From positions 1-22,227 of the IMG/VR virus record IMGVR_UViG_3300031621_000041: 22,227 bases of DNA. One strand, written 5' to 3'. The notes under the pieces are model-generated. The model was not told the origin of the DNA. It ran no database searches and saw only the letters and a program-made list of their open reading frames with translations. Numbering within the stretch: position 1 is the stretch's first letter; the number at the start of each line of letters is the position of its first letter. Both the position numbers and the translations under genes were made by a program. This DNA is from a virus. Below, piece by piece: positions 3,690 to 22,221 of the stretch.

Positions 3690-3695
3690 ATTTAA

Positions 3696-4475: not shown

Positions 4476-4477
4476 AA

Positions 4478-5722: not shown

Positions 5723-5723
5723 A

Positions 5724-6218: not shown

Positions 6219-6228
6219 TATTATTAAA

Positions 6229-7080: not shown

Positions 7081-7092
7081 AGTATTAAATTA

Positions 7093-8256: not shown

Positions 8257-10883
8257 TATATTGCTTCTCTTGTTGATCTAAATGCTTCCGCCGCCGCAAC
8301 CTTTAGGCTACGAACACGGGGACGACCGGTTGTTCGGTCAATTTTAAATTGAAATCCGTAGGCTCGTTTGTTTCCAATCCGTCCCCGGATAGAAACATCT
8401 TCGTCTTCAGAGAGTAATTCATTGTTAAGATAATTAGATAATTGTTTCAGATCTATTGTATCATCAACATTTTCTGTTATACCAGTAATAAAGAAATCTG
8501 ACTTTAAGTCAATGCTTGATTGCACCTGCATCTCGAAGTTATTCCACTTCTTTCTGTCAATGGTCTGATTGGTAAACATCCGAGTTGTCATCGAACCCTC
8601 AATATCCGGCACAAGTAAAAGACTATCCGGATCCTCGGTGCCAGCCGCAACTTGAGTAATAATACGATCGTTGCCCTGATCTAATGAATCAAGGCTATGA
8701 ATGCCCCCGTTAGTACTAATTGAATAAACCCCACGGTTCTTTCCGTCACCGGCTACAATAAGTTTCTTGAACTCAAAGCTACTGTCCCCAACATTGTCGA
8801 TTGATTCCCACTGCTTGTTAAGAAAGTTATAGATAATAATTCGATTATTGAACTGAGCGAGGTTTGTTTTTACCGATACATTTCCTTCATTGTCTACCTC
8901 AACGACTTCCTCATTCAGGGGAATTGCTAAGTAATACCGATTGTCAAAATAAACTCCGGAACTTTTATCCCACAAGTCTTTGTTAATTAACCCAATAGTA
9001 TTGTTAATAGATTCACTAAGGGGTACTTCATTTCCTCGAAGATTGTACAAGTCTTGGAAGTTCGCCCCGTATAAACCATTGTCAGATAAAAACAAAACGT
9101 TGTTACCTACCTGAATTATAGTATCTCTAGCAACACAACCTATCTCGTTGGTTAGCAACTGAGTTTGAGCGGTACTAAGATCTCCGCTATTAATCGCTAA
9201 ATGAATACTGTTACGATTAAATACTAATAGCTTGTCATCAGAAAAAGAATGAAGACCAACTGTAAAGTCAGCAGTTCCAGCATTAAATCGGAAGTTAGCA
9301 AAAACCTGATCGTATGTATCTGAATCAAGAATATCACTTACGGCTATTTCATCTTTCCTTCCGGTTGGAGTAATTTTTGTGCTTTCAGTAGGAAGTCCTG
9401 CATTAACAGTTTCCTGAGTAAAACGAAATGGAGTGACCAATCTACGTTGATGATAAACTCCGAACTCAGGTGCCGGCATATGCATAAAGCCTAAGCCAAT
9501 GGACACTGGCTTTGAAAATACTACACTCGTTCTGTTACTTGCATTTCCTAATTGAACGTAAAATGAAACTGTGTTTGCAGTTTTATCTACATTAAAGATT
9601 ACGTATTCATCTCCTAGTGCCAGTGCGGAGTTGCCAACAGCCTCAATGGTTATTGTATTTCCTACCTTTAAATTGGCTATATCTGCCGCCGGAACCTCAG
9701 CTACCGCTTCGCCATCCGTAATGTCCATAGTGGTAACACTTATTTCATCAGGCTGTCTAAAGGTCCCGTTTGCTACTAGAGTAAACGTTGGGTAAATTTT
9801 TGAATTACTGGTAACAGTATAGTTCGCTGTACCAGATGTCCCCACATTGTATGTAAATGTTTGATCAGTTACACTTGTTATCTCAAATTGACCGTTGGGA
9901 TTAATCGTTCCTGCTGAAACATCACGTATTTCTACCATGTCCCCAACAACTAATTGATGACTCAGGAATGTTTCAACATCAACCTCCGGGCTTCCGGTTT
10001 GGGATATTGCCTTAATACTAATTGGATTAAAAAACTTTTTGTTTTCAAGTGCAATCTGATTGTCTCGGAAAATAAACAATCGATTAAATGCCTGAAGCAT
10101 GTCGGACTTCTCGAGGACCGATTCTTCGTCAGGGAACCTCATCTCAAATGTTTCGTTATTTGATAAATTTAAAGCCAGTGCCGACAAGTTAGTTGATATT
10201 ATTATGTATTCCCCTTTTGTCGCAACAGGATTGCTATAGTTAGTTCCACAACGAACACCAGTAACTTTTGATGCATCTAAAGTAGAACGTCCTCCCGGGG
10301 AAGACAAGGGTTGTGTACTCAGGACCTCGGTGATTGGGGCAAAGGGTAACGTAAATGAAGTAACTAATCCTTGTGCAGGAGGGTATGTATAAAATCCCGT
10401 GGTTCCTGTTTTTGATGATTGAAACTTAAATCTGTTAGAACCATTAACTTCTGTAATAATGTAGCTTCCGTTTATATCAGGAAAACTTGATCGGAATACT
10501 CCATTAATAACAATTTGATTTCCCACGACAAACCCATGGTTAGTAAGTTTAATTGTAACAGTTCCGTCAGTTACAATTCCAACTGACTCCATTACTCTAG
10601 GTAATATTCCTATAGTAGAGGTAGGATCATTCCCAACGAACTCACTTACATTGGGTAATCGAAACGTATTTGACCCAGCCGCAAAGGGGACATTTAAAAC
10701 ATCAATGCCTTTACGGACTTGCCACTCTCCGTTTAAATCAAGGCGACCATTTCTTGACTCAGCCAAAACTCCCGGTTGCAGTTGATCAGGGCGAACACGA
10801 TTATTAAACCCAGAGAATGCAGTCTCTAAGTCTTCTTGCATTGGGTCGTCTTCACGACCGTAGGATCTATATCTTCCGGGCAT
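8256..10883 (-). CDS. Tail nozzle/hub protein (tail tubular protein B-like), 875 aa
   Basis: The ATG at 10883 (MPGRYRSYGREDDPMQEDLE) overlaps the preceding stop by one base (TAATG), so I prefer it to the in-frame TTG four codons upstream. The N-terminus has the motif GFNNRVRPDQLQPGVLAESR followed by LDLNGEWQVRKG, characteristic of a large podovirus tail protein that I associate with the nozzle/stabilisation protein. Three related beta modules (about residues 98-166, 299-358 and 381-444) follow the pattern HGFxxGNxIxIxG...NGxYxITxV...F. Later come the family-typical segments VYHQRRLVTPFRF, SDILDSDTYD, KLLVFNRNSIHL, LTNEIGCVARDTI and VLFLSDNGLYG, which look like beta-propeller blades. The length suits a T7 gp12-like nozzle with inserted domains. 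It should connect the adaptor ring to the fibres encoded downstream. Confidence 0.85.
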   Translation of the reverse strand: MPGRYRSYGREDDPMQEDLETAFSGFNNRVRPDQLQPGVLAESRNGRLDLNGEWQVRKGIDVLNVPFAAGSNTFRLPNVSEFVGNDPTSTIGILPRVMESVGIVTDGTVTIKLTNHGFVVGNQIVINGVFRSSFPDINGSYIITEVNGSNRFKFQSSKTGTTGFYTYPPAQGLVTSFTLPFAPITEVLSTQPLSSPGGRSTLDASKVTGVRCGTNYSNPVATKGEYIIISTNLSALALNLSNNETFEMRFPDEESVLEKSDMLQAFNRLFIFRDNQIALENKKFFNPISIKAISQTGSPEVDVETFLSHQLVVGDMVEIRDVSAGTINPNGQFEITSVTDQTFTYNVGTSGTANYTVTSNSKIYPTFTLVANGTFRQPDEISVTTMDITDGEAVAEVPAADIANLKVGNTITIEAVGNSALALGDEYVIFNVDKTANTVSFYVQLGNASNRTSVVFSKPVSIGLGFMHMPAPEFGVYHQRRLVTPFRFTQETVNAGLPTESTKITPTGRKDEIAVSDILDSDTYDQVFANFRFNAGTADFTVGLHSFSDDKLLVFNRNSIHLAINSGDLSTAQTQLLTNEIGCVARDTIIQVGNNVLFLSDNGLYGANFQDLYNLRGNEVPLSESINNTIGLINKDLWDKSSGVYFDNRYYLAIPLNEEVVEVDNEGNVSVKTNLAQFNNRIIIYNFLNKQWESIDNVGDSSFEFKKLIVAGDGKNRGVYSISTNGGIHSLDSLDQGNDRIITQVAAGTEDPDSLLLVPDIEGSMTTRMFTNQTIDRKKWNNFEMQVQSSIDLKSDFFITGITENVDDTIDLKQLSNYLNNELLSEDEDVSIRGRIGNKRAYGFQFKIDRTTGRPRVRSLKVAAAEAFRSTREAI

Positions 10884-11110
10884 TAGCAGTTCCAAGCTTT
10901 GCGGCTCCAGTAGTTAGCCGACAACTTATTTGATTTACCTTTGATCCCTCCGCTTCTTGCACAGTAGCTTTTCTTCCGTGCCGGACGGTTTTTCTTTATG
11001 GTCATGTTTGCATCACCAAACCTGACAACCTTTTCTTTGCCACCTTGGCAAGCCTTGACAACAAACTTCTTCCCACCTTGCACATCTCTGCGAGGTGAGT
11101 TGCATTTCAT
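10883..11110 (-). CDS. Small basic Cys-containing conserved phage protein (75 aa)
   Basis: I choose the ATG at 11110 (MKCNSPRRDVQGGKKFVVKA), seven bases after the preceding stop, over an in-frame GTG at 11131 that would overlap the upstream gene. The 75-residue product is strongly basic, with GGKEKVVRFGDANMTIKK and ANYWSRKAWNC at the end. I recognise this type of short protein (KxCNSP ... KVVRFGDxNM ... ARYWSxKxW) as widespread in phages, usually of unknown function. It lies in a run of four very small basic genes between the membrane genes and the hub. Its stop overlaps the hub start (TAATG). A nucleic-acid-binding or virion-internal role fits the charge but is only inference. Confidence 0.85.
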   Translation of the reverse strand: MKCNSPRRDVQGGKKFVVKACQGGKEKVVRFGDANMTIKKNRPARKKSYCARSGGIKGKSNKLSANYWSRKAWNC

Positions 11111-11117
11111 TTTACTT

Positions 11118-11366
11118 TTATTTATTGCCACGTTTTACTTTTGCTTTAGGGGTGTTACTTACAAATTGTTTTCCTTTTGCTCCGGCTTTCTTTTTCTTTC
11201 TTGCTGTAGCCGCTCGCTCTGACTTAGACAAACTTTTAGCTTTAGCCATCGGAAGGCAACGGTCGGGATTCTTTTTGTTCTTAGACGTTCCGCAAGGTCC
11301 CTTAATTGATCCATCGATTCCAATTCTAACCCAGTTTTGTTGTCTCCACTTTTTAAGCTCACCCAT
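11118..11366 (-). CDS. Small basic conserved phage protein (82 aa, possibly DUF6321-like)
   Basis: An 82-residue protein with N-terminal KKWRQQNWVRIGIDGSIKGP, then CGTSKNKKNPDRCLPMAKAK, then LSKSERAATARKKKKAGAKG. The order tryptophan-rich strand, CGTS...NPDRCLP, SLSKxERAATARKKKKAGAKG is conserved in many phage genomes, and I recall it as DUF6321-like, unverified. Two cysteines in the CGTS/RCLP part could bind metal or form a bridge; the C-terminal half is polybasic and probably disordered. The start overlaps the preceding stop by one base (TAATG). Function is unknown. Consistent pairing with the 75-residue protein downstream suggests the two act together, perhaps as minor virion or DNA-binding components. 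Confidence 0.87.
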   Translation of the reverse strand: MGELKKWRQQNWVRIGIDGSIKGPCGTSKNKKNPDRCLPMAKAKSLSKSERAATARKKKKAGAKGKQFVSNTPKAKVKRGNK

Positions 11367-11506
11367 TATTTCTTCCGCTTTTTCTTACCCTTCGCATAGT
11401 TAGGGTCCTTGCAATACTTTGATGCCGCCATATTAGCATAGGCACTAGGATACTTATCGAAAGTCCTACGTGCCCAAGCTATACCTTTTTTGCAGATCTT
11501 AGCCAT
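11366..11506 (-). CDS. Tiny basic conserved phage protein (46 aa)
   Basis: A 46-residue product, MAKICKKGIAWARRTFDKYP followed by SAYANMAASKYCKDPNYA and a polybasic tail KGKKKRKK. The core pattern (KxC-x-KGxAWAxRTFxxYPSAYANxxAxxYC) is one I recognise from short phage genes of unknown function, so this is a real gene despite its size. Two cysteines 27 residues apart could form a metal site or disulphide. Its ATG overlaps the stop of the 26-residue gene by one base (TAATG), and its stop overlaps the next ATG the same way, giving a translationally coupled chain. Function unknown. Confidence 0.85.
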   Translation of the reverse strand: MAKICKKGIAWARRTFDKYPSAYANMAASKYCKDPNYAKGKKKRKK

Positions 11507-11586
11507 TAGCACTTACCACGTTTCATTTTCTTTTTGGCTGGTGGTCTTCCTTTTTTAGTTCCGTATGTTCCTTTTCCTTTTGGCAT
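11506..11586 (-). CDS. Mini-protein MPKGKGTYGTKKGRPP type (26 aa)
   Basis: A 26-residue product: MPKGKGTYGTKKGRPPAKKK then MKRGKC. It has a clear SD (AAAGGA nine bases before the ATG, in AAAAGGATATATTATG) and ends in a one-base overlap with the following ATG. Short proteins beginning MPKGKGTYGxKxGRP are common in phage genomes of this type, which supports it being a real gene. The GRPP core resembles an AT-hook (GRP flanked by basic residues), so minor-groove DNA binding is plausible; this is inference. It opens the chain of four tiny basic genes. Confidence 0.8.
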   Translation of the reverse strand: MPKGKGTYGTKKGRPPAKKKMKRGKC

Positions 11587-11597
11587 AATATATCCTT

Positions 11598-11993
11598 TTA
11601 TTTAACTTGAGATGATCCGAAGTAAAAGCCAACAATAGCTAGTGCTGTCTGGCGAACCTCCGGTAGAATGACGAATCCTTGCAGGGTGTCCCATCTAAGG
11701 GTCTTGAATAGCCCTAGAAAGCCGTTTGTTTCCCTGCCTACGGTTACCCCTACGTTAGTGAATGCAAAGACGAATGGGGCTACTACAATGGCAAAGAACG
11801 TTATTGCTACTAATCCCCGGCGAACCCATACACCGCCCCGGGCAGATGCCTTGTCCGCAGACAGGTCCGCCACGTTCTGACGTTGGATCATTGCCTCAAG
11901 GGCACGACCCTGTGCTTCGGCTTGAGTGGCTATAAGTTTCATTATAAATCCTGAAACACTACCGCCTAGCATTGCTAATAGTTCTATTGTCAT
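11598..11993 (-). CDS. Membrane protein, holin-like (131 aa)
   Basis: The start is set at ATG 11993 (MTIELLAMLGGSVSGFIMKL): it overlaps the preceding stop as ATGA and has the SD GGAAAGGA eight to ten bases upstream; an ATG six codons earlier lacks an SD. The protein has an N-terminal hydrophobic helix (about 3-20), an amphipathic Gln/Ala-rich helix (ATQAEAQGRALEAMIQRQ), a basic GGVWVRRG turn, a long transmembrane segment (LVAITFFAIVVAPFVFAF) and a final hydrophobic segment with LPEVRQTALAIVGFYFGSSQ. This three-segment arrangement resembles 3TM holin-type proteins (GTA_holin_3TM-like), so release of lysins through the inner membrane is the likely role. No endolysin gene is in the window. The family call is tentative; membrane location is well supported. 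Confidence 0.8.
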   Translation of the reverse strand: MTIELLAMLGGSVSGFIMKLIATQAEAQGRALEAMIQRQNVADLSADKASARGGVWVRRGLVAITFFAIVVAPFVFAFTNVGVTVGRETNGFLGLFKTLRWDTLQGFVILPEVRQTALAIVGFYFGSSQVK

Positions 11994-12151
11994 TTGTTCA
12001 TTCCTTTCCATATTTTAATAATGGATGATACCATGTATCCAAGTGTAGCCAAGCCTACGAGCAGGCTGACGAATGAATTAATTTCTTGTAGTCCTAGTGT
12101 AGCCAAAAAACCTCCGGTTCCTATAAATGATTTTGTAAATATTTCTTCCAT
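11990..12151 (-). CDS. Small membrane protein (53 aa), possible holin partner
   Basis: A 53-residue product beginning MEEIFTKSFIGTGGFLATLG. It has two short hydrophobic segments (about 9-20 and 27-47) separated by LQEINS, and a basic end (IIKIWKGMNK). It starts two bases after the LRR gene stop and ends in an ATGA overlap with the holin-like gene, so the two membrane proteins are translationally coupled. I have seen similar GGFLATL...LVGxxTxxYMxxxIxKxxK small proteins next to holin-like genes in marine phages. A role as holin, antiholin or membrane partner is inferred. No SD precedes the start (TTAATTAATTATG). Confidence 0.8.
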   Translation of the reverse strand: MEEIFTKSFIGTGGFLATLGLQEINSFVSLLVGLATLGYMVSSIIKIWKGMNK

Positions 12152-12153
12152 AA

Positions 12154-13227
12154 TTAATTAAATGCTGGGAGATTAACTGTCCACCCTGCCGCTACTAGTG
12201 TGTCCTTGTCGGCTAATCCGGCTGATGTAGGATAGCCATTTCTTCCACTAATATCTATAATGTTTGGGCTAATGGTGCCGGCATTAGCAAAAGCATTTAA
12301 TATTTTATCAACCTCGACTGTAGATAGTTGACAATTACTGGCATAGAATCTTGACAGTTTATTGGTTACATCGAAGTCAGATGCTAGGCTAAGATCGTTT
12401 TTAAATCCACGATTCCAAGGTTCGCCTGCACCAACGTGATAAAATGTTAAAGCTGTAGCACCGGAAAGATTTGGTATTTCACCGGTTAACATAACCTTAG
12501 GATGAATCCTTGAGTATGTTTGTCCATCGTCCTGACCGTATGCTAAGTATGATTCGATTACAGTATTGGCACTTAAGTCGTGTATACTCCCTTCAAATGC
12601 ATTGCTTTGAACTTGATATTTTTTTGTAGTTGAACTTAAACTTGGAAGTTCCCCTGTAAATTTATTGCCTTGAATAAACATATTCTTAGCAGTAACGTTT
12701 GAAGGGAATTCTCCGGGAATTGAATTACCCTTGAAGTTTATCGTTAGGTAATCTACACTTGCACCATTGTTCCACTTAGGCATTGGTTGCTTTATACCTA
12801 AATTTTCTAGTTTTAATGTATCTGATCCGCCAGTAATTGCATCCCAATAAAACTCTAGTCCGCCTAAATTTTCTATAGAAGATGCTCCAGTACTAGAATT
12901 TATTCCACTAGCAAATAAAGCACCTGCAGTTACAGAAATTACATCGCCCGAAGTAAGACCACTGTAGGTTTTACTAACAATAGTAGAAACATTTGAGCTT
13001 GTTCCGTCACCAAAATAAATAGTAGTAGTTCCGCTTCTGGCAAAAGTAAAGGACTCAGAAGCGGCACCGCTAGCAACAAAAGAAAACAACCTTAACCTAA
13101 ACGGGTCAGGAGTTGGTAGACTGCCTGTATCGATGATACCTGCCCCTATGTCCCCAAAGGATCCGTGCCTTGCCCCAAATGTTTGAAGATCAGGTCCGGA
13201 TAATAAACTTATCTGGGATGATTCCAT
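12154..13227 (-). CDS. Leucine-rich-repeat virion/adhesin-like protein (357 aa)
   Basis: N-terminal residues 1-140 are beta-rich, with an Ig/PKD-like stretch TTTIYFGDGTSSN. Residues about 150-300 are irregular leucine-rich repeats of the plant-type LxGxIPxL pattern: GNSIPGEFPSN, GNKFTGELPSLSS, SNAFEGSIHDLSA and LTGEIPNLSGA. The C-terminus (NCQLSTVEVDKILNAFANAG, IDISGRNG, AGLADKDTLVAAGWTVNLP) is the cap I associate with phage and bacterial secreted LRR proteins. There is no signal peptide or membrane anchor, consistent with a virion component. It starts directly after the stop of the 102-residue gene (TAG-ATG) and ends two bases before the 53-residue membrane gene. LRR domains bind proteins or glycans, so receptor recognition or capsid-surface display is plausible. 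The fold is well supported, the function is not. Confidence 0.88.
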   Translation of the reverse strand: MESSQISLLSGPDLQTFGARHGSFGDIGAGIIDTGSLPTPDPFRLRLFSFVASGAASESFTFARSGTTTIYFGDGTSSNVSTIVSKTYSGLTSGDVISVTAGALFASGINSSTGASSIENLGGLEFYWDAITGGSDTLKLENLGIKQPMPKWNNGASVDYLTINFKGNSIPGEFPSNVTAKNMFIQGNKFTGELPSLSSTTKKYQVQSNAFEGSIHDLSANTVIESYLAYGQDDGQTYSRIHPKVMLTGEIPNLSGATALTFYHVGAGEPWNRGFKNDLSLASDFDVTNKLSRFYASNCQLSTVEVDKILNAFANAGTISPNIIDISGRNGYPTSAGLADKDTLVAAGWTVNLPAFN

Positions 13228-13536
13228 CTACGATGACATCTCTGTTCCGTATACAATAGCAGTGCCACTAGCGGCAATAAAGCTAGCAACTCGTGCGGCT
13301 TGAATGCTTAGAGAATATGCACGTCCGGCATACAACTTGTGACCGTTTGCTGTGCTTGGAGTAGATCCATCAAGTGTCATAAAAACATCTGCTGTTTGAA
13401 CATCAAATGAAATAACATTAGTAGATGGATCAAAGGCTCCGAACTCAACTGCGGCACCGGATGTCACGGATAAACGTTGGGCACTGGCACCTTGTGTTGG
13501 GCTTAGGTATAGATTTGTAACGAATGAATTAGCCAT
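13228..13536 (-). CDS. Small beta-rich putative virion protein (102 aa)
   Basis: A 102-residue protein, MANSFVTNLYLSPTQGASAQ, with alternating hydrophobic residues throughout (strand-rich), a VFMTLDGSTPS turn and a YAGRAYSLSI strand. It resembles small decoration or adaptor-associated proteins of other tailed phages (pattern FxTLDGSxPSxxNGHxLxAG), but I cannot name a family. It overlaps the adaptor stop by one base (TAATG) and abuts the LRR gene with no gap. Position between adaptor and LRR protein suggests a minor head or neck component. It might anchor the LRR protein; that is inference. Confidence 0.8.
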   Translation of the reverse strand: MANSFVTNLYLSPTQGASAQRLSVTSGAAVEFGAFDPSTNVISFDVQTADVFMTLDGSTPSTANGHKLYAGRAYSLSIQAARVASFIAASGTAIVYGTEMSS

Positions 13537-14147
13537 TATCTTGATTGTGTTGAAACGTAAGTAGTAAACTTACGTCGAATTGTATTATTGTTTGAGATTA
13601 TATCGAGCTTCTCTAGCTCGGTTGCTAGGTAAGATGTTGCTTTATTTTCTTCGTCCATTGCTTTACTGGTCTGTCCGTCCATGCGGAGGAAGTCAGCATA
13701 AGTAGCATGAGCGGCGAAGTAGAAAAATTCCTCGGGAATATCTGTTGAGGTTTTTGTAAAATCCTTAAATACTTTTTTGTAGGTTACATAAACTGAACTG
13801 TTAGTCGTGCTACCTAAGTTCATTACGTGAGCACCGTTCGCATCAACATAAAAGTTATACTCCAGAGTTCCTGAATTAAGAAACGGCTGGTCACGATGAA
13901 TACGTTGGAACTCAGATATATCATCCTTTGTCGAATTTGTTTGTATAAAGGGAACAACTTGGTCACTTGATATGGTTCTCTCTTCCCCTACGATAATGTA
14001 AGGTGTCCACATCTGAGAAGCACTGTAAGCCTCATACAACCTGCGGTTAGCTAAACGTAGTATGTCATCTTCTTCGCTTGAAGTAAATGCATTAACACCG
14101 GCTAAGGACCGGACTAGTTGAAATAGATCTGAATAACTTTTAGCCAT
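13536..14147 (-). CDS. Head-tail adaptor (tail tubular protein A / gp11-like), 203 aa
   Basis: A 203-residue protein, MAKSYSDLFQLVRSLAGVNA. It has an N-terminal helical part with DDILRLANRRLYEAYSASQM (helix packing against portal in this class), a central beta region (EFQRIHRDQPF, EYNFYVDANGAHVMNLG, SSVYVTYKKVFKDF), and a C-terminal helix pair (PEEFFYFAAHATYADFLRMD ... KAMDEENKATSYLATELEKL). This architecture and the place after portal, scaffold and capsid match podovirus adaptor proteins that form the ring between portal and nozzle. It overlaps genes on both sides by one base (TAATG), so is translated in a coupled chain. Assignment by architecture and position; no catalytic motif expected. 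Confidence 0.8.
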   Translation of the reverse strand: MAKSYSDLFQLVRSLAGVNAFTSSEEDDILRLANRRLYEAYSASQMWTPYIIVGEERTISSDQVVPFIQTNSTKDDISEFQRIHRDQPFLNSGTLEYNFYVDANGAHVMNLGSTTNSSVYVTYKKVFKDFTKTSTDIPEEFFYFAAHATYADFLRMDGQTSKAMDEENKATSYLATELEKLDIISNNNTIRRKFTTYVSTQSR

Positions 14148-14422
14148 TAGATTTTATTGGGAGCAAGCTCGGGCATTTCCTTTTGGAAAAACTTTAAAAA
14201 TTCTTTGCTGTGCACTTCTTCGGTTCCGTATTGTTGAACCAATCGAAAGTATTCACGAGCAGGTATAGTTGCAATGCATTTACCAAGCACCGGGTGAGTC
14301 TTCCCGACATTGGAGTGTGCCTCTTCTTTGGCAACATCAACACGTTCTTTTTCTGTTTGAACTTCATTGACCAAATATTTGTCAACGTATTCGTTTAATT
14401 CTGTACTTATTTGTTCTGACAT
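14147..14422 (-). CDS. Conserved hypothetical protein (91 aa) just after the capsid terminator
   Basis: I place the start at ATG 14422 (MSEQISTELNEYVDKYLVNE); the frame is open further upstream but that part overlaps the terminator and the capsid gene and reads as non-natural protein. The 91-residue product is helical and charged. Its C-terminal half, IPAREYFRLVQQYGTEEVHS followed by KEFLKFFQKEMPEL, looks conserved and resembles short proteins seen after capsid genes in marine phages; I know no function. It begins 10 bases beyond the terminator, so its message comes from readthrough or an unseen promoter, and no SD is visible (TTTTTATCTACACAT precedes the ATG). It overlaps the adaptor start by one base. 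Confidence 0.75.
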   Translation of the reverse strand: MSEQISTELNEYVDKYLVNEVQTEKERVDVAKEEAHSNVGKTHPVLGKCIATIPAREYFRLVQQYGTEEVHSKEFLKFFQKEMPELAPNKI

Positions 14423-14431
14423 ATGTGTAGA

Positions 14432-14472
14432 TAAAAAGAAGCTCCCTGCCCCAGATGGGGCAAGGAGACTTC
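14432..14472 (-). terminator. Strong intrinsic terminator after the major capsid gene
   Basis: On the minus strand, GAAGTCTCCTTGCCCC is followed by loop ATCT and then GGGGCAGGGAGCTTC, giving a stem of about 15 pairs with one mismatch/bulge, directly followed by TTTTTAT. It begins nine bases after the capsid stop codon and ends ten bases before the next start. This is a textbook Rho-independent terminator inside the structural operon, likely partial, and it would also protect the 3' end of the capsid message. Confidence 0.93.
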
Positions 14473-14480
14473 GGATTGAA

Positions 14481-15470
14481 TTAGTCGATCTGAGTGATCT
14501 TACCGTGAGCTTGAGGATGGTATACACCAAGTCCAAGAACACAATCAACGTAGCCACGTTCGCCGCCACCCTGATTAGGAAGACGAGTTGAACCCATTGG
14601 GATCAGTTCGTGGATGCCGTAGTACTCAGGGTTAACCAAGTATCCAGTAGCAGTAGTTGTAGTGCCAGTCGAAGCAGGCATACAAGCTGGGTTACCGTTG
14701 ATGATGCTTACGATGCCGTGGTCACTTTGGTAAAGCTCAACTGACAACTTGATTGTGGAAGAACCACCGTCATAGTTAACCGAACGAACTGAATCAGAGA
14801 GAAGTCCACCGACACGAGCGAAATCAGAGATTACACGACGAAGACCTGTGTCAGCAACAAGAGTCAAGCTATCTACGTTGCCTGTTTGGCGGTAGATGCT
14901 GGAGATCAAGTCATTGAACTTAGCTTCGTTGAATCCAGTTGTAGCATAGATGCTAGAACCGGGAGTCTCAAATCCAGCAGGAACTAAACCAGCGGCAGGA
15001 GTGTCATCGATGAAAGCACCAAGACCAGCAGTAAGATAGGCATTAGCACCAGTTCCTATTTGTTTGTCTTGAGCACCACAAAGAGTAAGCTCGATGTCAC
15101 GTTTTAGTTCACGGATTGACTTGGCTTCAGCCTCAGCAAGTTTAGCAGGACCGACAGAATCAGTAGCCTCTTGAAGGTCTGATACCATGTAGTCACGGCG
15201 GAACTTTTGAACGTAGTTAGAAGTACGTTCACGAGCGGCGAATGCATCAGTGAATGTTGCAACGTCAGCACCTTCGACAACACCTGCGGCGGCTGGATCG
15301 TCCAGCTTGTCAAGTGTCCACTCGAAGTTAACGTTGGTAGCTTTTTTGCGAGAACCGCCGGAGAGAACTGGAGTTTCCTCGGGGGCAAGTACTGACAGGA
15401 TGTCGGTTAAGTCTTCACGATTGGAAGAAGCCGATCCCGGTAATGTTGTGAATGTATTTGAAAATGCCAT
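14481..15470 (-). CDS. Major capsid protein, SU10/DUF5309 type (329 aa)
   Basis: A 329-residue protein, MAFSNTFTTLPGSASSNRED, with the segments DILSVLAPEETPVLSG, NVNFEWTLDKLDDPA, GVVEGADVATFTDAFAARER, NYVQKFRRDYMVSDLQEATD and AEAKSIRELKRDIELTLCGA. This is the characteristic sequence series of the DUF5309 (SU10-type) HK97-fold major capsid family. The middle has the FNDLISSIYRQTGN region with LTLVADTGLRRVISDFAR, and the C-terminus has LSVELYQSDHGIVSIINGN. There is no N-terminal protease-like domain. It follows the scaffold by 12 bases and is followed by a strong terminator. Oddly for the most abundant virion protein there is no SD; AT-rich CATTTAATAAA precedes the ATG. Family recognition is confident. 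Confidence 0.95.
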   Translation of the reverse strand: MAFSNTFTTLPGSASSNREDLTDILSVLAPEETPVLSGGSRKKATNVNFEWTLDKLDDPAAAGVVEGADVATFTDAFAARERTSNYVQKFRRDYMVSDLQEATDSVGPAKLAEAEAKSIRELKRDIELTLCGAQDKQIGTGANAYLTAGLGAFIDDTPAAGLVPAGFETPGSSIYATTGFNEAKFNDLISSIYRQTGNVDSLTLVADTGLRRVISDFARVGGLLSDSVRSVNYDGGSSTIKLSVELYQSDHGIVSIINGNPACMPASTGTTTTATGYLVNPEYYGIHELIPMGSTRLPNQGGGERGYVDCVLGLGVYHPQAHGKITQID

Positions 15471-15482
15471 TTTATTAAATGT

Positions 15483-16529
15483 TTATTGATTAGATAACTG
15501 AAGGGTTCGTAGACGAATGAAATCACTTTTGTTTCCGCTATCACGGAATTGTTGACTTATTGCTTTGATGTTTTGAGCCTTCTTAGATGTTGAACGATCT
15601 GATACCGATGCCGAAGGAATGCCGCTTTTAGGAGGATTCATGGATCCAACTGGCTTCCTTGCATACAAACTATTTGCCGCATGAGCAATTAGGTATGGTA
15701 GTTGTGCGGAGACTTCCGGTAGCACTGATTCAAGTTTTTGCAAACGAGGATCTTTTAGCATAGCCTGATACTTTTGATTAACGTCATTGCTGTCGTCATC
15801 TATCCACGTCAATTCTTTTTTAGCTTGTTCGGCAAATGCAGATTTTAATTGCACTGACTGAGCTTGATCTTGAAGTTGACGTAGGCGATCAGGCAGGAAC
15901 GTATCCTTTGTTTTACGTGCATTACGTAAAGTCTGACGGACTTGAGCTTTCGTAAGCTCTTGACCATTGGCTTCAGTAACAACGTCTTCAGGTCCGTAAC
16001 CATCGCTATTAAAAATAAGATCTTCTGCCCATTCAATAACACTATCCATTTCTTGTGACTTGCTTTGCAGTTCTTCAACTGTATTCAAATCATTAAAAGG
16101 ATTGTCTTCGATTGGTTTCTTTGTATTAAGAGGATCTTCAGCCTGCATCTCTGACTTTAAACGAGCAAGCTCTTCTTCGGCTTGTTTACGTTTAGCTGTC
16201 AGTTCTCCAAACCTAGCAACGGCACGACTCCCTAACTTTTCAGCTAGTTCCCGTAATTCGTCTTCGGACATATCGTCCATATTCATCTGAGAAAGAACAT
16301 CATCAGCAGATTCTTCTCCGGTTTGTTCAACCGTGTCTGTTTCTGCATCAACAATTAGGGGTTCATCTTCAACTGATTCGGGAGCTACTTCCTCGGTTTC
16401 TTGAGTAGCAACTTCTTCGTCAGTTGGGATTCCTCCCAAGCGAGCTTGAGCGAACTCAGCTACACTGATATTTGTACTGTCCACTGAACTTGCGGCTTCA
16501 GCGATTTCCGTATTTGATTCGTCTGTCAT
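15483..16529 (-). CDS. Capsid scaffolding protein (348 aa)
   Basis: A 348-residue protein with a very acidic N-terminal third (Glu/Asp-rich to about residue 100), a probable coiled coil at about 95-135 (AEKLGSRAVARFGELTAKRK ... EEELARLKSEMQ), a helical middle, and a basic C-terminal tail (RSTSKKAQNIKAISQQF, RLRTLQLSNQ). Acidic-coiled-basic is the usual layout of podovirus scaffolds, whose basic end binds the capsid protein, and it sits directly upstream of the capsid gene. It has the best SD in the capsid cassette (TTAAGGAGTGGGTAATTATG) and follows an extended -10 promoter, so translation and transcription are both well supported. No protease motif is visible, so it is probably removed intact or cut by another protein. 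Confidence 0.88.
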   Translation of the reverse strand: MTDESNTEIAEAASSVDSTNISVAEFAQARLGGIPTDEEVATQETEEVAPESVEDEPLIVDAETDTVEQTGEESADDVLSQMNMDDMSEDELRELAEKLGSRAVARFGELTAKRKQAEEELARLKSEMQAEDPLNTKKPIEDNPFNDLNTVEELQSKSQEMDSVIEWAEDLIFNSDGYGPEDVVTEANGQELTKAQVRQTLRNARKTKDTFLPDRLRQLQDQAQSVQLKSAFAEQAKKELTWIDDDSNDVNQKYQAMLKDPRLQKLESVLPEVSAQLPYLIAHAANSLYARKPVGSMNPPKSGIPSASVSDRSTSKKAQNIKAISQQFRDSGNKSDFIRLRTLQLSNQ

Positions 16530-16570
16530 AATTACCCACTCCTTAACGGCGAGCGATGCCGATGGTTTTT

Positions 16571-16602
16571 ATTATATCACACTTAATTTCTATGCTTCTC
16601 AA
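16571..16602 (-). promoter_or_regulatory. Extended -10 promoter before scaffold/capsid genes
   Basis: On the minus strand, TGATATAAT (16571-16579) is an exact extended -10 element (TGnTATAAT). A weak -35-like TTGAGA lies at 16597-16602, with a spacer of 20, longer than ideal but acceptable with an extended -10. Transcription should begin near 16564 and give a leader of about 35 bases with a small CGGC/GCCG hairpin and the scaffold SD. With the terminator at 14432-14472 it brackets the scaffold and capsid genes. Confidence 0.7.
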
Positions 16603-16813
16603 TAAGAGAATCATAGTCAACCATGTGTAAAATTTGATCATATGACAACAGTCTACCACTAATCTGTTGCATATTGTCTGAGTTAGCAAGGTGCAGTTCT
16701 TCGATGCACTCTTCTCTCATTGTTAAAACAAATCCCATGAAGCGAGCAAATGCTTCGTATTGAGATAGTGTGTCTAAATCTTCTTGTATGTTAGTAACTG
16801 GACTCGTTTGCAT
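16583..16813 (-). CDS. Conserved hypothetical protein between portal and scaffold (76 aa)
   Basis: A 76-residue helical protein, MQTSPVTNIQEDLDTLSQYE, with FARFMGFVLTMREECIEELH and NMQQISGRLLSYDQILHMVD. I recognise the series (DLDTLSxYxxFxRFMxFxxxxREECIExLH ... QQISGRxLxYDxxL) as a short protein commonly placed between portal and scaffold in phages of this kind, without a known function. It overlaps the portal 3' end by 23 bases in another frame. The -10 of the capsid-cassette promoter lies just beyond its stop codon. Possible roles are capsid or portal assembly co-factor. Confidence 0.82.
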   Translation of the reverse strand: MQTSPVTNIQEDLDTLSQYEAFARFMGFVLTMREECIEELHLANSDNMQQISGRLLSYDQILHMVDYDSLIEKHRN

Positions 16814-18890
16814 TTTGTGTATTTACGTTGCCGACTTCTGCTGGAGATGTTCCGATACGTCCGATCTGTGCATTCTCTGCTTGTTGCATTTGGAATGTAT
16901 ACTGACCTACATATTTTTGTAAACGTTCAGCAAACATTTGATCTTGCTCTAGGCGACCGGCGATGTCTGGTTGTTGTGAATATTGTTGAACAAGTTGGAC
17001 TGCAGTTTGACCACCATTAGCTCGTGCTGGCATTTCAATGCCGGCAAAGATCTTAGCTAAGTCATCAGTTACTCCACGAATAATTTCGTCTTGAGCAACT
17101 TGAGGTGACTGAAGTATACCATCCGCTAGAACCGGATCAATAGATGATGCGATTGCTGTAAGTAGGTTATCTACATTCATTAGACCATTGCGATCATACT
17201 GAAGCATACCAAGCATTCCTTGTAATTTTTGTGCTTGTGCTTCTGGATCCGTGGTCAATACATCATAATTAATCATGATGTCAAAGTTTTCATTTGGATT
17301 TCCCTTAACCATTTGAACTGACTCAGGGACACCGGTAACCCGGAAGAATGTGCTATCTGGTCCAAAACGTTGGTAGCATTTAAATGCCATACGTAGGACC
17401 TTAGCATTGTGTTGAAGAAACTTATCGACCAAGAATTGCTTGCGAACACCGCTAATTTGACTGGTTTCATCCAATCCGCACAAGCGATCAGCCTGAGCCT
17501 GTTGGGTTTGTTCCATCTCTATGGACCCGGTAGGCGGTGGCGGAGTAGGTGCAAAGTCAATATCCCCCTTGCGACGATAAGGAATGTAACGACCGGGACC
17601 CCAATCAGTTGGTGCCTGACCCACTGGGTGAATGATCGGAGGCATTGTTGCAATGCTGTTCCGGTCAATACGTGAGTCACGTTCGATCTTAATTTGATTT
17701 TGAATACCACGAAGGATCTGAGGGAAGGTCATCGTATCATACATACGTTTGCTGTCCTCAGATAAACGTGTGACTACCACTGGGTAATCCTCGTATCCGT
17801 TAAGTAATTCAAACTTTGCAAAGCCCGGGATGTCTCCATCTCCGCTGAACTCTCTGTGAAAGACTGTGCAATAGATTCCTTGTGCACCATCGTCCGGATC
17901 TACTAAACGTTGATAGCCATAGATAATTTCAATGAGTTCGTCTTGCTGATCAGTATTATCAGTAAAGATCATGCTACGGTTTTGATCGCTATCACGATCA
18001 ACCATGTTATCGCTGGATCCGCGATACCGCTCAATGATGTGCTGAACAAAGTCCGCATCCCATCCGTCTGTAGCAACCTTACCCTCTAGCTCTTGAGCTG
18101 TGTATGATGTCCTCCAAAAGCAATAAGGTGCCCGTTGCGGATCAGTAACATAACTCGGAAAAAAGAAATCTCCGTCAGGGGAAAGTGTTTTAATTTCAGG
18201 TGCATCTACTAAACGGCGGATCAAAGGAAGAACCGTCTCGCTAGTATTGCGAAGTTCTTTAATAGCTTTTTTTGCTGATTTAATATTGATACCATCAAAC
18301 GTAGTCTCAATAAAAGCAGCGAGTTCGGCATCGTTACCCCCATCAAGGATGGAGCGATAGATCTCTGGGTTCGTTTGTCCTATCTGATCCATGGTTATAG
18401 TTTGTTTGAATCGAGTATCTTCCCGGTTCCAACCTACGTATGTAACCATTAACCCTCGTTCTAGCATATAATTAGCACCTAGTTCCATTTCTTCGGCGAA
18501 CCGATTAATGTAACCACTTGTAACCATCCAACGGAGAAAGTTTGAAACAACCTTTGAACGTCCTATGTCACTTATCTCAACGGGGAATGCCCGGATATTT
18601 GCACGACTAAGTGCTGACATAAACAAAGATACTAAACGTGTGATACGTTCGTCAATGGTATGAGCCTCCATATCTGATGCACCTTCCCAAGGAAAGGCAT
18701 CTGCTCCGTGCTTTCGGAGATCCCGGGACTTACCGTTCCAGAAATTGCGGCGGTCATCATAAGATGTGCGACACACATCAAAGTATGGTTCTAGCTCAAG
18801 CACCGTCTGATCGTAAGCACGGCGGAGAGCATTGACGTTTGGTTCATCCCCAACGTATGTTAAGGATTCAAAAATATCTTCGTTCTGCAT
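16791..18890 (-). CDS. Portal protein (699 aa)
   Basis: A 699-residue podovirus-type portal: the dodecameric ring through which DNA enters and leaves. Features that I associate with this family are the N-terminal DDRRNFWNGKSRDLRKHGAD followed by AFPWEGASDMEAHTIDERI, then LVSLFMSALSRANIRAFPVE, the central LSPDGDFFFPSYVTDPQRAP segment, and a long C-terminal helical region rich in Gln (for example QLVQQYSQQPDIAGRLEQDQ), probably the barrel. It sits one gene downstream of the terminase block and upstream of scaffold, the standard order. It overlaps the HTH gene at its 5' end by 23 bases and the 76-residue gene at its 3' end by 23 bases. No SD is seen before the ATG (AGAAAAAAACTAA), so coupling to the overlapping upstream gene is likely. 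Confidence 0.93.
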   Translation of the reverse strand: MQNEDIFESLTYVGDEPNVNALRRAYDQTVLELEPYFDVCRTSYDDRRNFWNGKSRDLRKHGADAFPWEGASDMEAHTIDERITRLVSLFMSALSRANIRAFPVEISDIGRSKVVSNFLRWMVTSGYINRFAEEMELGANYMLERGLMVTYVGWNREDTRFKQTITMDQIGQTNPEIYRSILDGGNDAELAAFIETTFDGINIKSAKKAIKELRNTSETVLPLIRRLVDAPEIKTLSPDGDFFFPSYVTDPQRAPYCFWRTSYTAQELEGKVATDGWDADFVQHIIERYRGSSDNMVDRDSDQNRSMIFTDNTDQQDELIEIIYGYQRLVDPDDGAQGIYCTVFHREFSGDGDIPGFAKFELLNGYEDYPVVVTRLSEDSKRMYDTMTFPQILRGIQNQIKIERDSRIDRNSIATMPPIIHPVGQAPTDWGPGRYIPYRRKGDIDFAPTPPPPTGSIEMEQTQQAQADRLCGLDETSQISGVRKQFLVDKFLQHNAKVLRMAFKCYQRFGPDSTFFRVTGVPESVQMVKGNPNENFDIMINYDVLTTDPEAQAQKLQGMLGMLQYDRNGLMNVDNLLTAIASSIDPVLADGILQSPQVAQDEIIRGVTDDLAKIFAGIEMPARANGGQTAVQLVQQYSQQPDIAGRLEQDQMFAERLQKYVGQYTFQMQQAENAQIGRIGTSPAEVGNVNTQNANESSY

Positions 18891-19107
18891 TTAGTTTTTT
18901 TCTAACGGTTGTGATGACCTGATGGACATAGCCCTTATTCACCCCGATTTTATCACACAAATCTAAAGGTTTCATGGGTATGTTTTCTTGATTGTTACAA
19001 TACCTCTGTAGTATCTCCCAAGATAGCAATCGGTCAACCTGTTGGTCTATAAATTCTGGATCAAGAGTTATGTCTTGTTGGGATGTATCTGTAGCTGGAT
19101 CCTGCAT
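18868..19107 (-). CDS. Small helix-turn-helix protein (79 aa)
   Basis: A 79-residue protein, MQDPATDTSQQDITLDPEFI, with an acidic N-terminus and a C-terminal helix-turn-helix pattern (about residues 46-71): MKPLDLCDKIGVNKGYVHQV followed by ITTVRKKLNAERRYF. The DKIGVNKGYVHQVITTVR part reads like a recognition-helix motif of sigma-region-4/Xre-like HTH folds. It overlaps the 128-residue gene by 47 bases and the portal by 23 bases, so it is nested tightly between packaging and head genes. It could be a small DNA-binding regulator, or a terminase- or portal-associated factor. The upstream start overlap is long, so a later start is possible, though no better ATG precedes the HTH. Confidence 0.75.
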   Translation of the reverse strand: MQDPATDTSQQDITLDPEFIDQQVDRLLSWEILQRYCNNQENIPMKPLDLCDKIGVNKGYVHQVITTVRKKLNAERRYF

Positions 19108-19447
19108 TGTCTGTGATTTCTTCTACCTTAATTGTTTTACCATTTAGTTTGCCCTTGAACCTACGTGGCACAACTACCGGAACTCGTTTATTTAGTTCAT
19201 TTAAATAAACATAAACGTAGTTAGGGTTAGGTGCTTGAGTTAATACCTTGCCAACGTAGTAGTTAGGGATTAGCTCCGGTGCCTCTAGTTTATCTTTAAC
19301 TATACTGACCGCATCTTCGGTTAACCAAGTGTTCTTACCCTTGCCGCTAATATCATCTTCAGAAACATTATCCTCAATGATAGTAGAGATAGTTAAAAAA
19401 TCTACCTCTAGTTCTTCTGCTAGTGCTGTTGCTTTTGTCTTAGCCAT
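19061..19447 (-). CDS. Hypothetical protein with N-terminal winged-helix-like domain (128 aa)
   Basis: A 128-residue protein, MAKTKATALAEELEVDFLTI, preceded by a strong SD (AGGAGGATATTAAATG). Residues 3-55 look like a small helical domain (ATALAEELEVDFLTISTIIE, then WLTEDAVSIVKDKLE) similar in pattern to the IF2 N-terminal/HTH-type domain. Residues 65-120 are strand-rich (YVGKVLTQAPNPNYVYVYLN, RVPVVVPRRFKGKLNGKTIK, VEEITDNAGSSYRYI), like a small beta barrel. It starts right after the TerL stop (TerL ends at 19448) and overlaps the HTH gene. I have seen a similar helical-plus-beta protein after terminase genes in marine phages, but the function is unknown. Confidence 0.82.
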   Translation of the reverse strand: MAKTKATALAEELEVDFLTISTIIEDNVSEDDISGKGKNTWLTEDAVSIVKDKLEAPELIPNYYVGKVLTQAPNPNYVYVYLNELNKRVPVVVPRRFKGKLNGKTIKVEEITDNAGSSYRYIPTRHNS

Positions 19448-21103
19448 TTAATATCCTCCTGTTGTTTTTTGTATTACCTTCATGTCCTTGTTGGTAACAT
19501 GGTCAGGACCTTCGCCCCGGTTAGCCATACGTAGATAACGAATCACGTCAAAGAAATCCTTTAGTGGTTCGTCAGCTTTTCCGTTGGCATTGTAGTTAAT
19601 TAAACTGTCAATCAAGTTGCCGCATCGTTCGTGTATGTAGCAACGAGGTTTATTCATATCATCAATCTTTGCATTTGGGTTATAACTAAACCAATCGTCC
19701 AGTGCATTGATACCCATGTCCTGTGTCCTGCCATCTGATGGTACAAATGATAAGCCATGATCATAGAATGTAGTGAATAAGTCGTCATTATTCTCGTTTT
19801 CCCGGGCAAAATAACGTGAATCCCCTATCCTTTCAAAGACTTCTACCCCGTGTGATTCCTCTATTCCTAGGAATAAATCGGTGTATCCTTGCACATCGTA
19901 GCCTATTTTCTTTGATGCTGGTCCACGTTTCCACTTTGGGTCCCCGAACATTGCCCACTCTCCGTGTGCACCCCGGTCCGGAAACTCATCGAAGATATAT
20001 ATCTCTCCTTCTTCGTTAACCGCCGCCCATATAGCTACACTGTTCCGGGCACCTGCCGGATCCATCACCATGTAAATGGTGTAGTCATCGTCATTAATTT
20101 CCGGGAATGTCATTCCGTATTTATTTGGAATGTCGCCAAGAACATTTATCTCAGTTGAGAACAGGGGTAGCAGTGATGTCATTGACTTCACCGGCACACC
20201 GTAAGCACGAACTAGGATCTCTTCGTCCGGGCGACCCTTTAGATCTTTGCTTAGACGTTTGTAACCACCAAATGGATTTTCATCTGAGTGCAGGTAAACT
20301 ATGCCGGCATCTCGGTTAGGGCTATACTGCCGGATTGGTAGCTGGCGGTTCTTTAATAGACTCGCCTCACGAGTCTCTAGTGTTTCCGCATTGGTGCAAT
20401 ACTCGCTAATGAAAGGTGTGAACCCATCAATAGGAGTAAACCCCAGTATCATCTTTGAATTAAATGTAGCTAAACGGAAACGAAGTGTGTTAACCAAAGC
20501 CGCATCACCAAGGTATTCGTCTAGCCATGCCCCCATGTTTAGGTTGTCTGGCTTAGAAGGGAACCCGAATTGCATACCCTCTAGGATGGTTTGGTTATTC
20601 GAGAACTGTGTGTAAGTCTTGAAGTCAACCCGGGTCCGGGTATCCGGAAAGATAAACGAGCTTCCGGTGAATCCATTTTGCATAGAGAAGTTAATATATC
20701 CCTCCGTGCTCTTGGTCTTTTTCCGGAACTCCTTGGGCATCATTTCCCACATCGCGGCTTGCTGAACCTTGACGGATGTATCCGCATTCTGTGAGAAACA
20801 AACTATGTGACCGTTCATGTTCTCCATTACAGCCTGCATGATTATCTTTGCACACCCGGTAGTCTTCCCGGATCTGTTGCCCCCAAGGGTGAGGACCTCG
20901 TTGTATTCGTTTAGTCCGTCCCGGATCCTGCCCCATCCCTCTAACTCAAACCCGTATCGGACCGGATCGTTAGTAGCGGCTTCTATCCTGCCCTCGTGAG
21001 CACGGTGCAGATCCTCGAGTAACTGAGGATCTTTCTTTGCTAATAAAAGAATCTCTTCGTCACTAGGGGTATCTAGTATGGGGTGCTGGGTAAACTCAAT
21101 CAT
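19448..21103 (-). CDS. terL: Terminase large subunit
   Basis: ATP-driven DNA-packaging motor and nuclease. The start is ATG 21103 (MIEFTQHPILDTPSDEEILL): it overlaps the upstream stop as ATGA and has the SD GAGGA five bases before it; an ATG nine codons earlier reads into Arg-rich nonsense (GRGRRRGR) and is rejected. In the 551-residue protein, Walker A is GGNRSGKT (residues 74-81), Walker B WLDE (193-196) with adenine/coupling segment GFTPIDGFTPF (about 221-231). The RNase H-like nuclease begins at MVMDPAGARNSVAIW (Asp348) with a late acidic residue in FFDVIRYLRM (Asp519). All the key residues are present. It is cotranscribed with TerS and the small acidic gene. Confidence 0.96.
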   Translation of the reverse strand: MIEFTQHPILDTPSDEEILLLAKKDPQLLEDLHRAHEGRIEAATNDPVRYGFELEGWGRIRDGLNEYNEVLTLGGNRSGKTTGCAKIIMQAVMENMNGHIVCFSQNADTSVKVQQAAMWEMMPKEFRKKTKSTEGYINFSMQNGFTGSSFIFPDTRTRVDFKTYTQFSNNQTILEGMQFGFPSKPDNLNMGAWLDEYLGDAALVNTLRFRLATFNSKMILGFTPIDGFTPFISEYCTNAETLETREASLLKNRQLPIRQYSPNRDAGIVYLHSDENPFGGYKRLSKDLKGRPDEEILVRAYGVPVKSMTSLLPLFSTEINVLGDIPNKYGMTFPEINDDDYTIYMVMDPAGARNSVAIWAAVNEEGEIYIFDEFPDRGAHGEWAMFGDPKWKRGPASKKIGYDVQGYTDLFLGIEESHGVEVFERIGDSRYFARENENNDDLFTTFYDHGLSFVPSDGRTQDMGINALDDWFSYNPNAKIDDMNKPRCYIHERCGNLIDSLINYNANGKADEPLKDFFDVIRYLRMANRGEGPDHVTNKDMKVIQKTTGGY

Positions 21104-22110: not shown

Positions 22111-22127
22111 TGTCGCTGTAGCGGTAA

Positions 22128-22142
22128 TGAGACTGAGACTCA
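22128..22142. repeat. 15-bp palindromic repeat, copy 1 (TGAGACTGAGACTCA)
   Basis: First of three copies with consensus AATGAGACWGRGWCTCA. The arms TGAGAC and GACTCA match except for one base around a 3-base centre. Spacing to the next copy is 42 bp start to start. Confidence 0.75.
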
Positions 22143-22169
22143 ATATCAATAAGCACAGGAACTCTCAAA

Positions 22170-22184
22170 TGAGACAGGGTCTCA
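22170..22184. repeat. 15-bp palindromic repeat, copy 2 (TGAGACAGGGTCTCA)
   Basis: Middle copy and the only perfect one: 6-bp arms TGAGAC and GTCTCA around AGG. It lies 37 bp before the third copy (start to start). The perfect dyad suggests the highest-affinity protein site of the set. Confidence 0.78.
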
Positions 22185-22206
22185 AAAACTCGGGATGTAG
22201 TTTTAA

Positions 22207-22221
22207 TGAGACTGGGACTCA
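22207..22221. repeat. 15-bp palindromic repeat, copy 3 (TGAGACTGGGACTCA)
   Basis: Third copy, six bases from the window edge, with one mismatch in the arms as in copy 1. More copies may lie beyond the edge. Confidence 0.75.

Follow-up and report, generated by a model that had tools for sequence, protein, structure and literature searches.

A conserved pairing element in the scaffold leader

Between a predicted promoter and the start codon of the putative scaffold gene, the IMG/VR virus record IMGVR_UViG_3300031621_000041, from a marine phage (22,227 bases; ‘the window’ below, i.e. the whole stretch that was analysed) carries an element of 26 nucleotides (nt) that can be fitted as an H-type pseudoknot with two helices, P1 and P2. 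We consider that this element may well be a translational operator on the scaffold–capsid message, placed inside a unit bounded by a promoter and a terminator. The initial annotation had read this region as a capsid cassette bracketed by a promoter and a terminator of its own; comparison with relatives upholds the bracket, but the conserved leader, which gives the strongest signal in the region and suggests control at the level of translation in addition to transcription, had been left out. The features of the leader are as follows.

16536..16561, minus strand: leader element, 26 nt, fitted as an H-type pseudoknot and supported by covariation, between the −10 and the scaffold AUG
16558–16561 with 16547–16550, minus strand: predicted helix P1, CGGC/GCCG, supported by covariation
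16551–16556 with 16536–16541, minus strand: predicted helix P2, UCGCUC/GAGUGG, supported by covariation, its 3′ strand lying over the Shine–Dalgarno sequence
16557 and 16542–16546, minus strand: loops L1 (A) and L3 (UUAAG)
16539..16542, minus strand: scaffold Shine–Dalgarno sequence GGAG, three of its four bases paired in P2

Relatives were collected from IMG/VR with capsid and scaffold queries (the best 80 of 590 matches, the best 80 of 490, and 37 loci) and pooled with the window and its nearest annotated isolate, Phage C75C1 (OQ984151), duplicates being counted once. This gave 196 loci, 185 of them with a parsed scaffold; seven loci without a parsed scaffold and four without a capsid match were left out. 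Many loci are near-identical, and distinct sequences were counted where possible. Another set, of 71 loci with a scaffold, came from a later query that used a different capsid and from two genome contigs; among the 81 loci tested from these two later searches, 61 were new and 20 already known.

Read from 16561 to 16536, the element of the window is CGGC-AUCGCUC-GCCG-UUAAG-GAGUGG. In relatives both helices change in sequence while pairing is kept: P1 occurs as CGCC/GGCG, CGUG/CACG, CGCU/AGCG and CGAC/GUCG, and P2 as CGCUA/UAGUG, CACUA/UAGUG, CAUCC/GGAUG, CGCUU/AAGCG, CGCUG/CAGCG, CGCG/CGCG and CGCCC/GGGCG. One compensatory series passes through a G–U intermediate (CGCUC/GAGCG, CGCUC/GGGCG and CGCCC/GGGCG, in loci L344, L342 and L345). 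The changes are scattered over a quick tree of the scaffold plus capsid proteins (39 rows), with 12 at P2 pair 5, 13 at P2 pair 2, four at P1 pair 3 and 14 at P1 pair 4, which is often unpaired.

Covariation supports each of the two predicted helices. In alignment A2, which holds 41 of the 44 distinct elements, the covariation score is 0.188, compared with 0.102 (s.d. 0.012) after shuffling, a value reached by none of 500 shuffles, and it exceeds the scores of all six slid registers (0.024–0.115). With anchored registers (39 elements), 183 of the 195 P2 cells are paired, against 164.3 (s.d. 2.4) in shuffles (0 of 20000 as high); the number of pair types is less extreme, being matched by 533 of 20000 shuffles. 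When only the 21 distinct P2 pairings are counted (seven of them added by hand from the later loci), 96 of 105 cells are paired (81.2, s.d. 2.4, shuffled) and 13 pairings are complete (4.8 shuffled), neither figure being reached in 50000 shuffles.

The two helices cross, each with compensatory changes, and the loops are of lengths that would allow both to exist at once: L3, which is A-rich, spans 3–6 nt in the 39 elements, and a free parse gives 0–1 nt for L2 and 0–3 nt for L1. Exceptions in the later set are an L3 of 8 nt in two loci (L341 and L350) and a bulge in P2 in five others (L356 and L361 types). We infer from these features that the leader would form an H-type pseudoknot with both helices in one molecule.

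The element is read in all 185 loci with a parsed scaffold. An anchored pattern found it in 164. The other 21 were considered as real losses, and this was rejected, the element being present in every one: 20 belong to a single clade in which the scaffold start was misplaced by about 48 nt in the upstream direction (19 of these show the element directly and the twentieth, L131, through L297 from the same contig), and in L026 the parsed open reading frame (ORF) begins further downstream. Among the later loci the element was found in 70 of 71, seven of them with the long L3 or the P2 bulge; in the remaining one, L325, the start is mis-set and the stretch ends inside the element. A search of IMG/VR with a 21-base piece of the commonest subtype, using no protein, returned at least 120 stretches. 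The 80 motif loci listed, some of which are contigs already met, carry one copy each; all 80 have a scaffold homologue as the next ORF and a −10-like site upstream. The window holds a single copy at up to three mismatches. A looser descriptor scanned over both strands of 3.19 Mb gave 444 matches outside scaffold leaders, some of them the element itself at mis-set or missing scaffold starts, and no systematic second copy was seen among the 60 commonest of these matches. A numerical knot score was set aside as evidence: it is at least 20 in all 185 loci, yet 2715 background windows reach a maximum of 25 and have their 99th percentile at 20 as well. In the later set, eight of 71 loci score below 20, owing to a long L3, a P2 bulge or a mis-set start.

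The element matches no known Rfam family, such as the preQ1 or SAM-II riboswitch or the ribosomal protein leaders. Positions 16400–16700 of the window gave no Rfam match at E values up to 10, and at the gathering score ten element-bearing sources (the window and loci L001, L019, L030, L047, L048, L069, L078, L083 and L132) gave one tRNA and nothing else.

Promoter and terminator around the cassette

The leader lies within a bracket formed by four predicted features.

16571..16581, minus strand: extended −10 promoter TGTGA-TATAAT (TGTGATATAAT), with TATAAT at 16571–16576, no recognisable −35 and a conserved position
16563..16565, minus strand: predicted transcription start, placed 6–8 nt past the −10 on general promoter knowledge
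14439..14470, minus strand: intrinsic terminator hairpin, beginning 10 nt past the capsid stop codon
14427..14438, minus strand: U-rich terminator tail (CUUUUUAUCUAC), directly after the stem

The extended −10 promoter that the initial annotation had placed just before the scaffold is present, TGTGATATAAT sitting in the gap that separates the upstream gene, with its stop at 16583, from the scaffold start at 16529. Within the window the motif was rejected as evidence by itself, its counts being at chance: TGNTATAAT occurs twice against 1.08 expected, with 30 of 100 shuffles reaching at least two, and promoter-like sites overall number 41 in positions 1–20000 against 40.3 expected. It is the conserved position, and not the motif alone, that carries the promoter call. 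Among 99 distinct upstream regions of relatives, 85 match TATAAT at five or more of six bases (6% at random positions; about 21% in shuffled upstream regions), 67 carry the TGn extension and 55 carry both. The TRTGN signature of extended −10 sigma-70 promoters is seen in the same regions (T 78%, R 86%, T 85%, G 80%), no −35 consensus is apparent in them, and the −10 lies 5–10 nt, mostly 7–9 nt, from the leader element.

Several further observations concern this promoter region. In many relatives (e.g. L083, L098 and L153) a CTTG- or TTG-like element precedes the −10 by about 10 nt, and some have inverted repeats spanning the −10; across 53 thinned upstream regions the mean longest stem over the −10 is 4.64, compared with 4.24 (s.d. 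0.13) shuffled (0 of 100), with mixed positions. In one clade (L125 at 3708–3782, minus strand, L137, L154 and L126) a tRNA-Thr gene (anticodon tgt) stands in antisense orientation in the space that separates the scaffold promoter from the upstream gene. Elsewhere in the window, TGTGATAAAAT at 18947–18957 (minus strand) resembles an extended −10, lies 56 nt ahead of the portal start and could be another late promoter.

At the other end of the cassette, the strong intrinsic terminator claimed directly after the capsid was also recovered. It is a G+C-rich stem-loop with the U tract CUUUUUAUCUAC right after the stem, as expected of a Rho-independent terminator; its minimum free energy is −28.2 kcal/mol (z −6.68; none of 200 shuffles as stable), and it is the first-listed terminator-like site in a scan of the window. 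The comparison covered the 145 loci with at least 800 nt beyond the capsid. A stricter scan, demanding three T in the first four tail bases, had missed the terminator of the window itself and was replaced by a stem rule. By this rule a terminator ends the cassette in 139 of the 145 loci, against a background of 0.147 per kb (148 sites over 1.006 Mb of other sequence on that strand); the rule demands at least four T in eight tail bases, so that the T-richness of the tails in relatives arises by construction. The six loci that it missed all have, by eye, GGGGGC-GAAA-GCCCCC-type hairpins with T tracts, and hairpins after the capsid are also seen by eye in distant isolates. The stem sequences vary among clades (CTCCTTGCCCC.., GGGGAGGTTGGGCC.., GGGGGGCGAAAGCCCCCC), which speaks for selection acting on the structure and place of the terminator. 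Conservation in relatives, which had been suggested as a check, thus holds for the position of both the −10 and the hairpin, the stems differing in sequence between clades.

The terminator directly follows the capsid in 53 of the 139 loci and directly follows an inserted gene of about 150 amino acids (aa) in the other 86, i.e. it still closes the cassette where the capsid is followed by an extra gene. This inserted gene (86 of 145 loci: L183, L048, L083 and 83 more) often starts with MAKLTVNE, MPKLTVNE or MAIELKK and perhaps encodes a head decoration protein.

In the window only 16 nt separate the hairpin from the start of the next gene at 14422, too little for another promoter to fit. The next ATG is 6–19 nt past the hairpin in the 46 loci for which this was measured, so the downstream genes would be reachable only by readthrough, and the partial readthrough suggested in the initial annotation is in this sense a sound deduction; the high dosage of a short message that was proposed with it is hypothetical.

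Other folds in sister lineages

Paired leaders before the scaffold recur with different predicted folds across lineages. The HTVC106P-like Pelagibacter phages are without the knot (none of 61 reaches a score of 20); their leaders have another hairpin between the −10 and the Shine–Dalgarno sequence, of the form AAGC-CAA-(3 bp)-loop-A-GCUU, with a nearly constant CAA/A internal loop. In 32 distinct hairpins 224 of 224 cells are paired, and the covariation score is 0.508 against 0.203 (s.d. 0.022) shuffled (0 of 500), the pair counts being less extreme (reached by 95 and 141 of 500 shuffles). In many of these loci (L205–L284) the −10 is also spanned by a TTAACC..GGTTAA-type inverted repeat.

The Venkman-like (Methylophilales) phages (L474–L553; 65 loci, 32 distinct leaders, one outlier dropped) have two more hairpins before the scaffold, the second with a loop that is mostly CACC.AGA. 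Here 96.0% of cells are paired, compared with 88.2% (s.d. 0.6) shuffled, and covariation is 0.242 against 0.098 (s.d. 0.011; 0 of 500). The first of these hairpins may overlap the −10 and could be a DNA site. The leaders of pCB2047-A-like phages (32 loci) are G+C-rich. Rfam gave no match in sister-lineage leaders (five loci).

How the leader may act

We propose that the scaffold and capsid genes, joined in 86 of 145 relatives by the gene of about 150 aa, would be transcribed as a separate unit within the late operon. A host-type RNA polymerase would start the unit at the extended −10 promoter, a point favoured by the lack of any RNA polymerase among the 50 annotated features of C75C1 (many of them hypothetical), and a leaky intrinsic terminator would end it, leaving the downstream late genes to readthrough. 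The message would begin with the pseudoknot, which would occupy the ribosome-binding site of the scaffold, gate scaffold translation and, through the scaffold, also gate capsid translation. The knot would be held closed by a protein that accumulates if head assembly falls behind, the most plausible candidate being free scaffold protein.

In the 174 of 185 loci measured, the knot ends 4–17 nt (mode 8) before the scaffold AUG, so that it would have to open for a ribosome to start. The capsid, for its part, starts 1–39 nt past the scaffold stop and has no Shine–Dalgarno sequence in 68 of 68 distinct cases. The inserted gene of about 150 aa has a strong one in 46 of 46 distinct cases, compared with 20 of 179 other long ORFs.

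A number of observations weigh against this proposal. The MAFFT-based alignment A2 pairs only 74% of P2 cells (gaps in the loops shift the register); within it, 22 of 500 shuffles have as many pairs changed on both sides, and 58 of 500 as many further pair types. P2 pair 2 is a U·U mismatch in six of 39 elements and P2 pair 5 is non-standard in six of 39, and the relatedness among sequences survives the shuffling in the covariation tests. Nested folding of the window leader is no more stable than shuffles (z 0.76 and 0.38). A strong Shine–Dalgarno sequence is found in only 22 of 60 distinct leaders (38 of 60 are above −4 kcal/mol), so conservation is stronger for the knot than for the site it is supposed to hide, and the spacing of the knot is tighter to the −10 (5–10 nt) than to the AUG (4–17 nt), as would suit a role at the 5′ end. 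The capsid is not special in its missing Shine–Dalgarno sequence, since the same is true of 123 of the 179 other long ORFs at these loci, and coupling of capsid to scaffold translation is thus only plausible. Finally, the feedback by scaffold protein is carried over from work on phage P22.

Some of these points would be explained if the knot were a 5′-end cap that slows 5′-end-dependent decay and, with the 3′ terminator hairpin, gives a long-lived mRNA with no control of translation. The knot starts about 1–3 nt past the predicted start site, it is kept where the Shine–Dalgarno sequence is weak or lost, and the message also ends in a strong hairpin. Yet a simple stable hairpin would suffice for a cap, and what is conserved is two weak helices and a specific loop, with the 3′ strand held so close to the AUG. 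We regard the translational operator as the most likely reading and the 5′-end stabiliser as the next, the latter being a possibility that we would take up only tentatively.

The terminator hairpin might likewise act mainly as a 3′ stabiliser or processing site of the mRNA and hardly end transcription. This would suit downstream genes that need the same transcript and begin within 6–19 nt of the hairpin, but the immediate U tract of the window and the T-rich tails of relatives (in part a product of the rule) speak for termination, and we think this alternative unlikely.

Somewhat more doubtful still is a two-state switch, in which P1 (open) and P2 (closed) would be alternatives set by a metabolite, an ion or temperature, as in a small riboswitch or thermosensor. 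The computed stabilities of the window helices are nearly equal (−5.2 kcal/mol for P1 alone and −5.7 kcal/mol for P2 alone), covariation supports each helix but cannot show that they form together, and a pseudoknotted translational riboswitch, preQ1, exists; on the other hand, the loop lengths are those that an H-type knot needs, no Rfam family matches, and in the 80 motif loci listed the element stands only before scaffold genes, with no obvious link to a metabolite. That only the bracket matters, the leader being conserved as DNA (an initial transcribed region or an operator) with no functional RNA, is very unlikely: the element does abut the promoter, and promoter and terminator are conserved on their own, but the compensatory changes through a G–U intermediate point to RNA pairing, and other lineages keep other pairing structures at the same place.

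Returning to the translational operator, we may wonder whether the sister lineages have solved the same problem with other folds. With less confidence, we suggest that small phages with an SU10_MCP-type capsid could carry assembly-sensing leader RNAs on their scaffold–capsid messages, the C75C1-like knot at the ribosome-binding site being closed by free head protein, and the HTVC106P-like and Venkman-like folds doing the same job in the same place. If true, this would be a class of feedback operators on capsid assembly, of which we found no description.

Genes and relatives of the window

The large genes of the window lie on the minus strand, in the order terminase, small genes, portal, a 76 aa gene, scaffold, capsid, a 91 aa gene and other late genes.

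16583..16813, minus strand: small upstream gene, 76 aa, its stop codon immediately before the promoter
15483..16529, minus strand: putative scaffold protein gene, 348 aa, identified by position and synteny
14481..15470, minus strand: major capsid protein gene, 329 aa, SU10_MCP/phrog_1328
14147..14422, minus strand: first gene downstream of the terminator, 91 aa counted from ATG 14422, probably reached by readthrough only

The capsid matches PF17236 (SU10_MCP) with an E value of 6e-47, and also phrog_1328. The gene at 15483..16529 is named scaffold on its position and synteny: the gene in the same place is annotated as scaffold or scaffolding protein in three more distant phages. The scaffold of the window has no PHROG family match at E 0.001, its Pfam matches fall under their cut-offs, and PHROG matches for the scaffolds of 14 relatives are weak and single. 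The longest ORF after the capsid (14147–14569) has a GTG start inside the capsid gene; the ATG at 14422, just past the terminator, is the likelier start. A 16-base repeat (form GAGwCyCwGTCTCATT) occurs three times at 22126–22220, close to the end of the record and upstream of the terminase genes.

C75C1 shares 68% DNA identity with the window across 31% of a 5 kb query around the cassette, and is the only DNA-level match to that query; we found no paper on this phage. The other capsid relatives in the phage collection are at most 41% identical. In a test covering the cassette region and the capsid, the window does not group with the LUZ24-like phages (Bruynoghevirus), there being no LUZ24 record among the 44 records matched by the capsid at E 1e-5. 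A search for a host in genome contigs gave no match with the scaffold as query; a capsid profile matched two contigs of metagenome-assembled genomes (binned as Opitutae and Rickettsiales), matches too weak for naming a host.

Comparison with known systems

Phages must balance scaffold and capsid. In P22, free scaffold protein, the product of gene 8, lowers its own synthesis at a post-transcriptional level; we know of no RNA element of this kind there. In T7, a promoter and a partial terminator of its own bracket the capsid gene 10, which is transcribed by the RNA polymerase of the phage itself; no such leader knot is known to us in that system. The parallel to T7 drawn in the initial annotation is fair as regards the layout, but a nearer likeness, already in print, is UFV-P2. 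We conclude that a promoter and a terminator bracketing the capsid cassette are known in kind and ordinary.

What stands out is the leader, a compact RNA element of 26 nt with strong covariation in every relative of the lineage whose scaffold start is correctly set, with different structures in its place in sister lineages. We found no leader pseudoknot on a scaffold–capsid message in Rfam or in the openly licensed papers of PubMed Central. The element may serve as a marker for this phage lineage in metagenomes, and it makes gating directly and cheaply testable by reporter assays, compensatory mutants and co-expression of head proteins.

UFV-P2, a LUZ24-like phage, has a predicted Rho-independent terminator at the end of its major head gene, a scaffold beside the capsid, and two late modules with two predicted promoters (PMC3890496). 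These features are predictions there, and the part of that report cited here mentions no leader RNA. For the leader knot itself, the closest known counterpart is the T4 gene 32 operator, also a phage mRNA leader pseudoknot with two stacked stems and an autogenous control of translation (PMC3014915), and the only viral pseudoknot named under translational autoregulation in the part of that 2010 review cited here. It differs in place and in gene: the T4 knot lies 67 nt upstream of the start codon, where it nucleates cooperative binding (PMC3014915), whereas the present knot, rather than standing well upstream, falls inside the ribosome-binding site, at the predicted 5′ end of a scaffold–capsid message. 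Lastly, the S15 ribosomal protein gene is controlled by distinct RNA structures in different lineages, which resembles the variety seen among the scaffold leaders, although S15 belongs to a cellular ribosomal protein system with a known ligand (PMC4137082).

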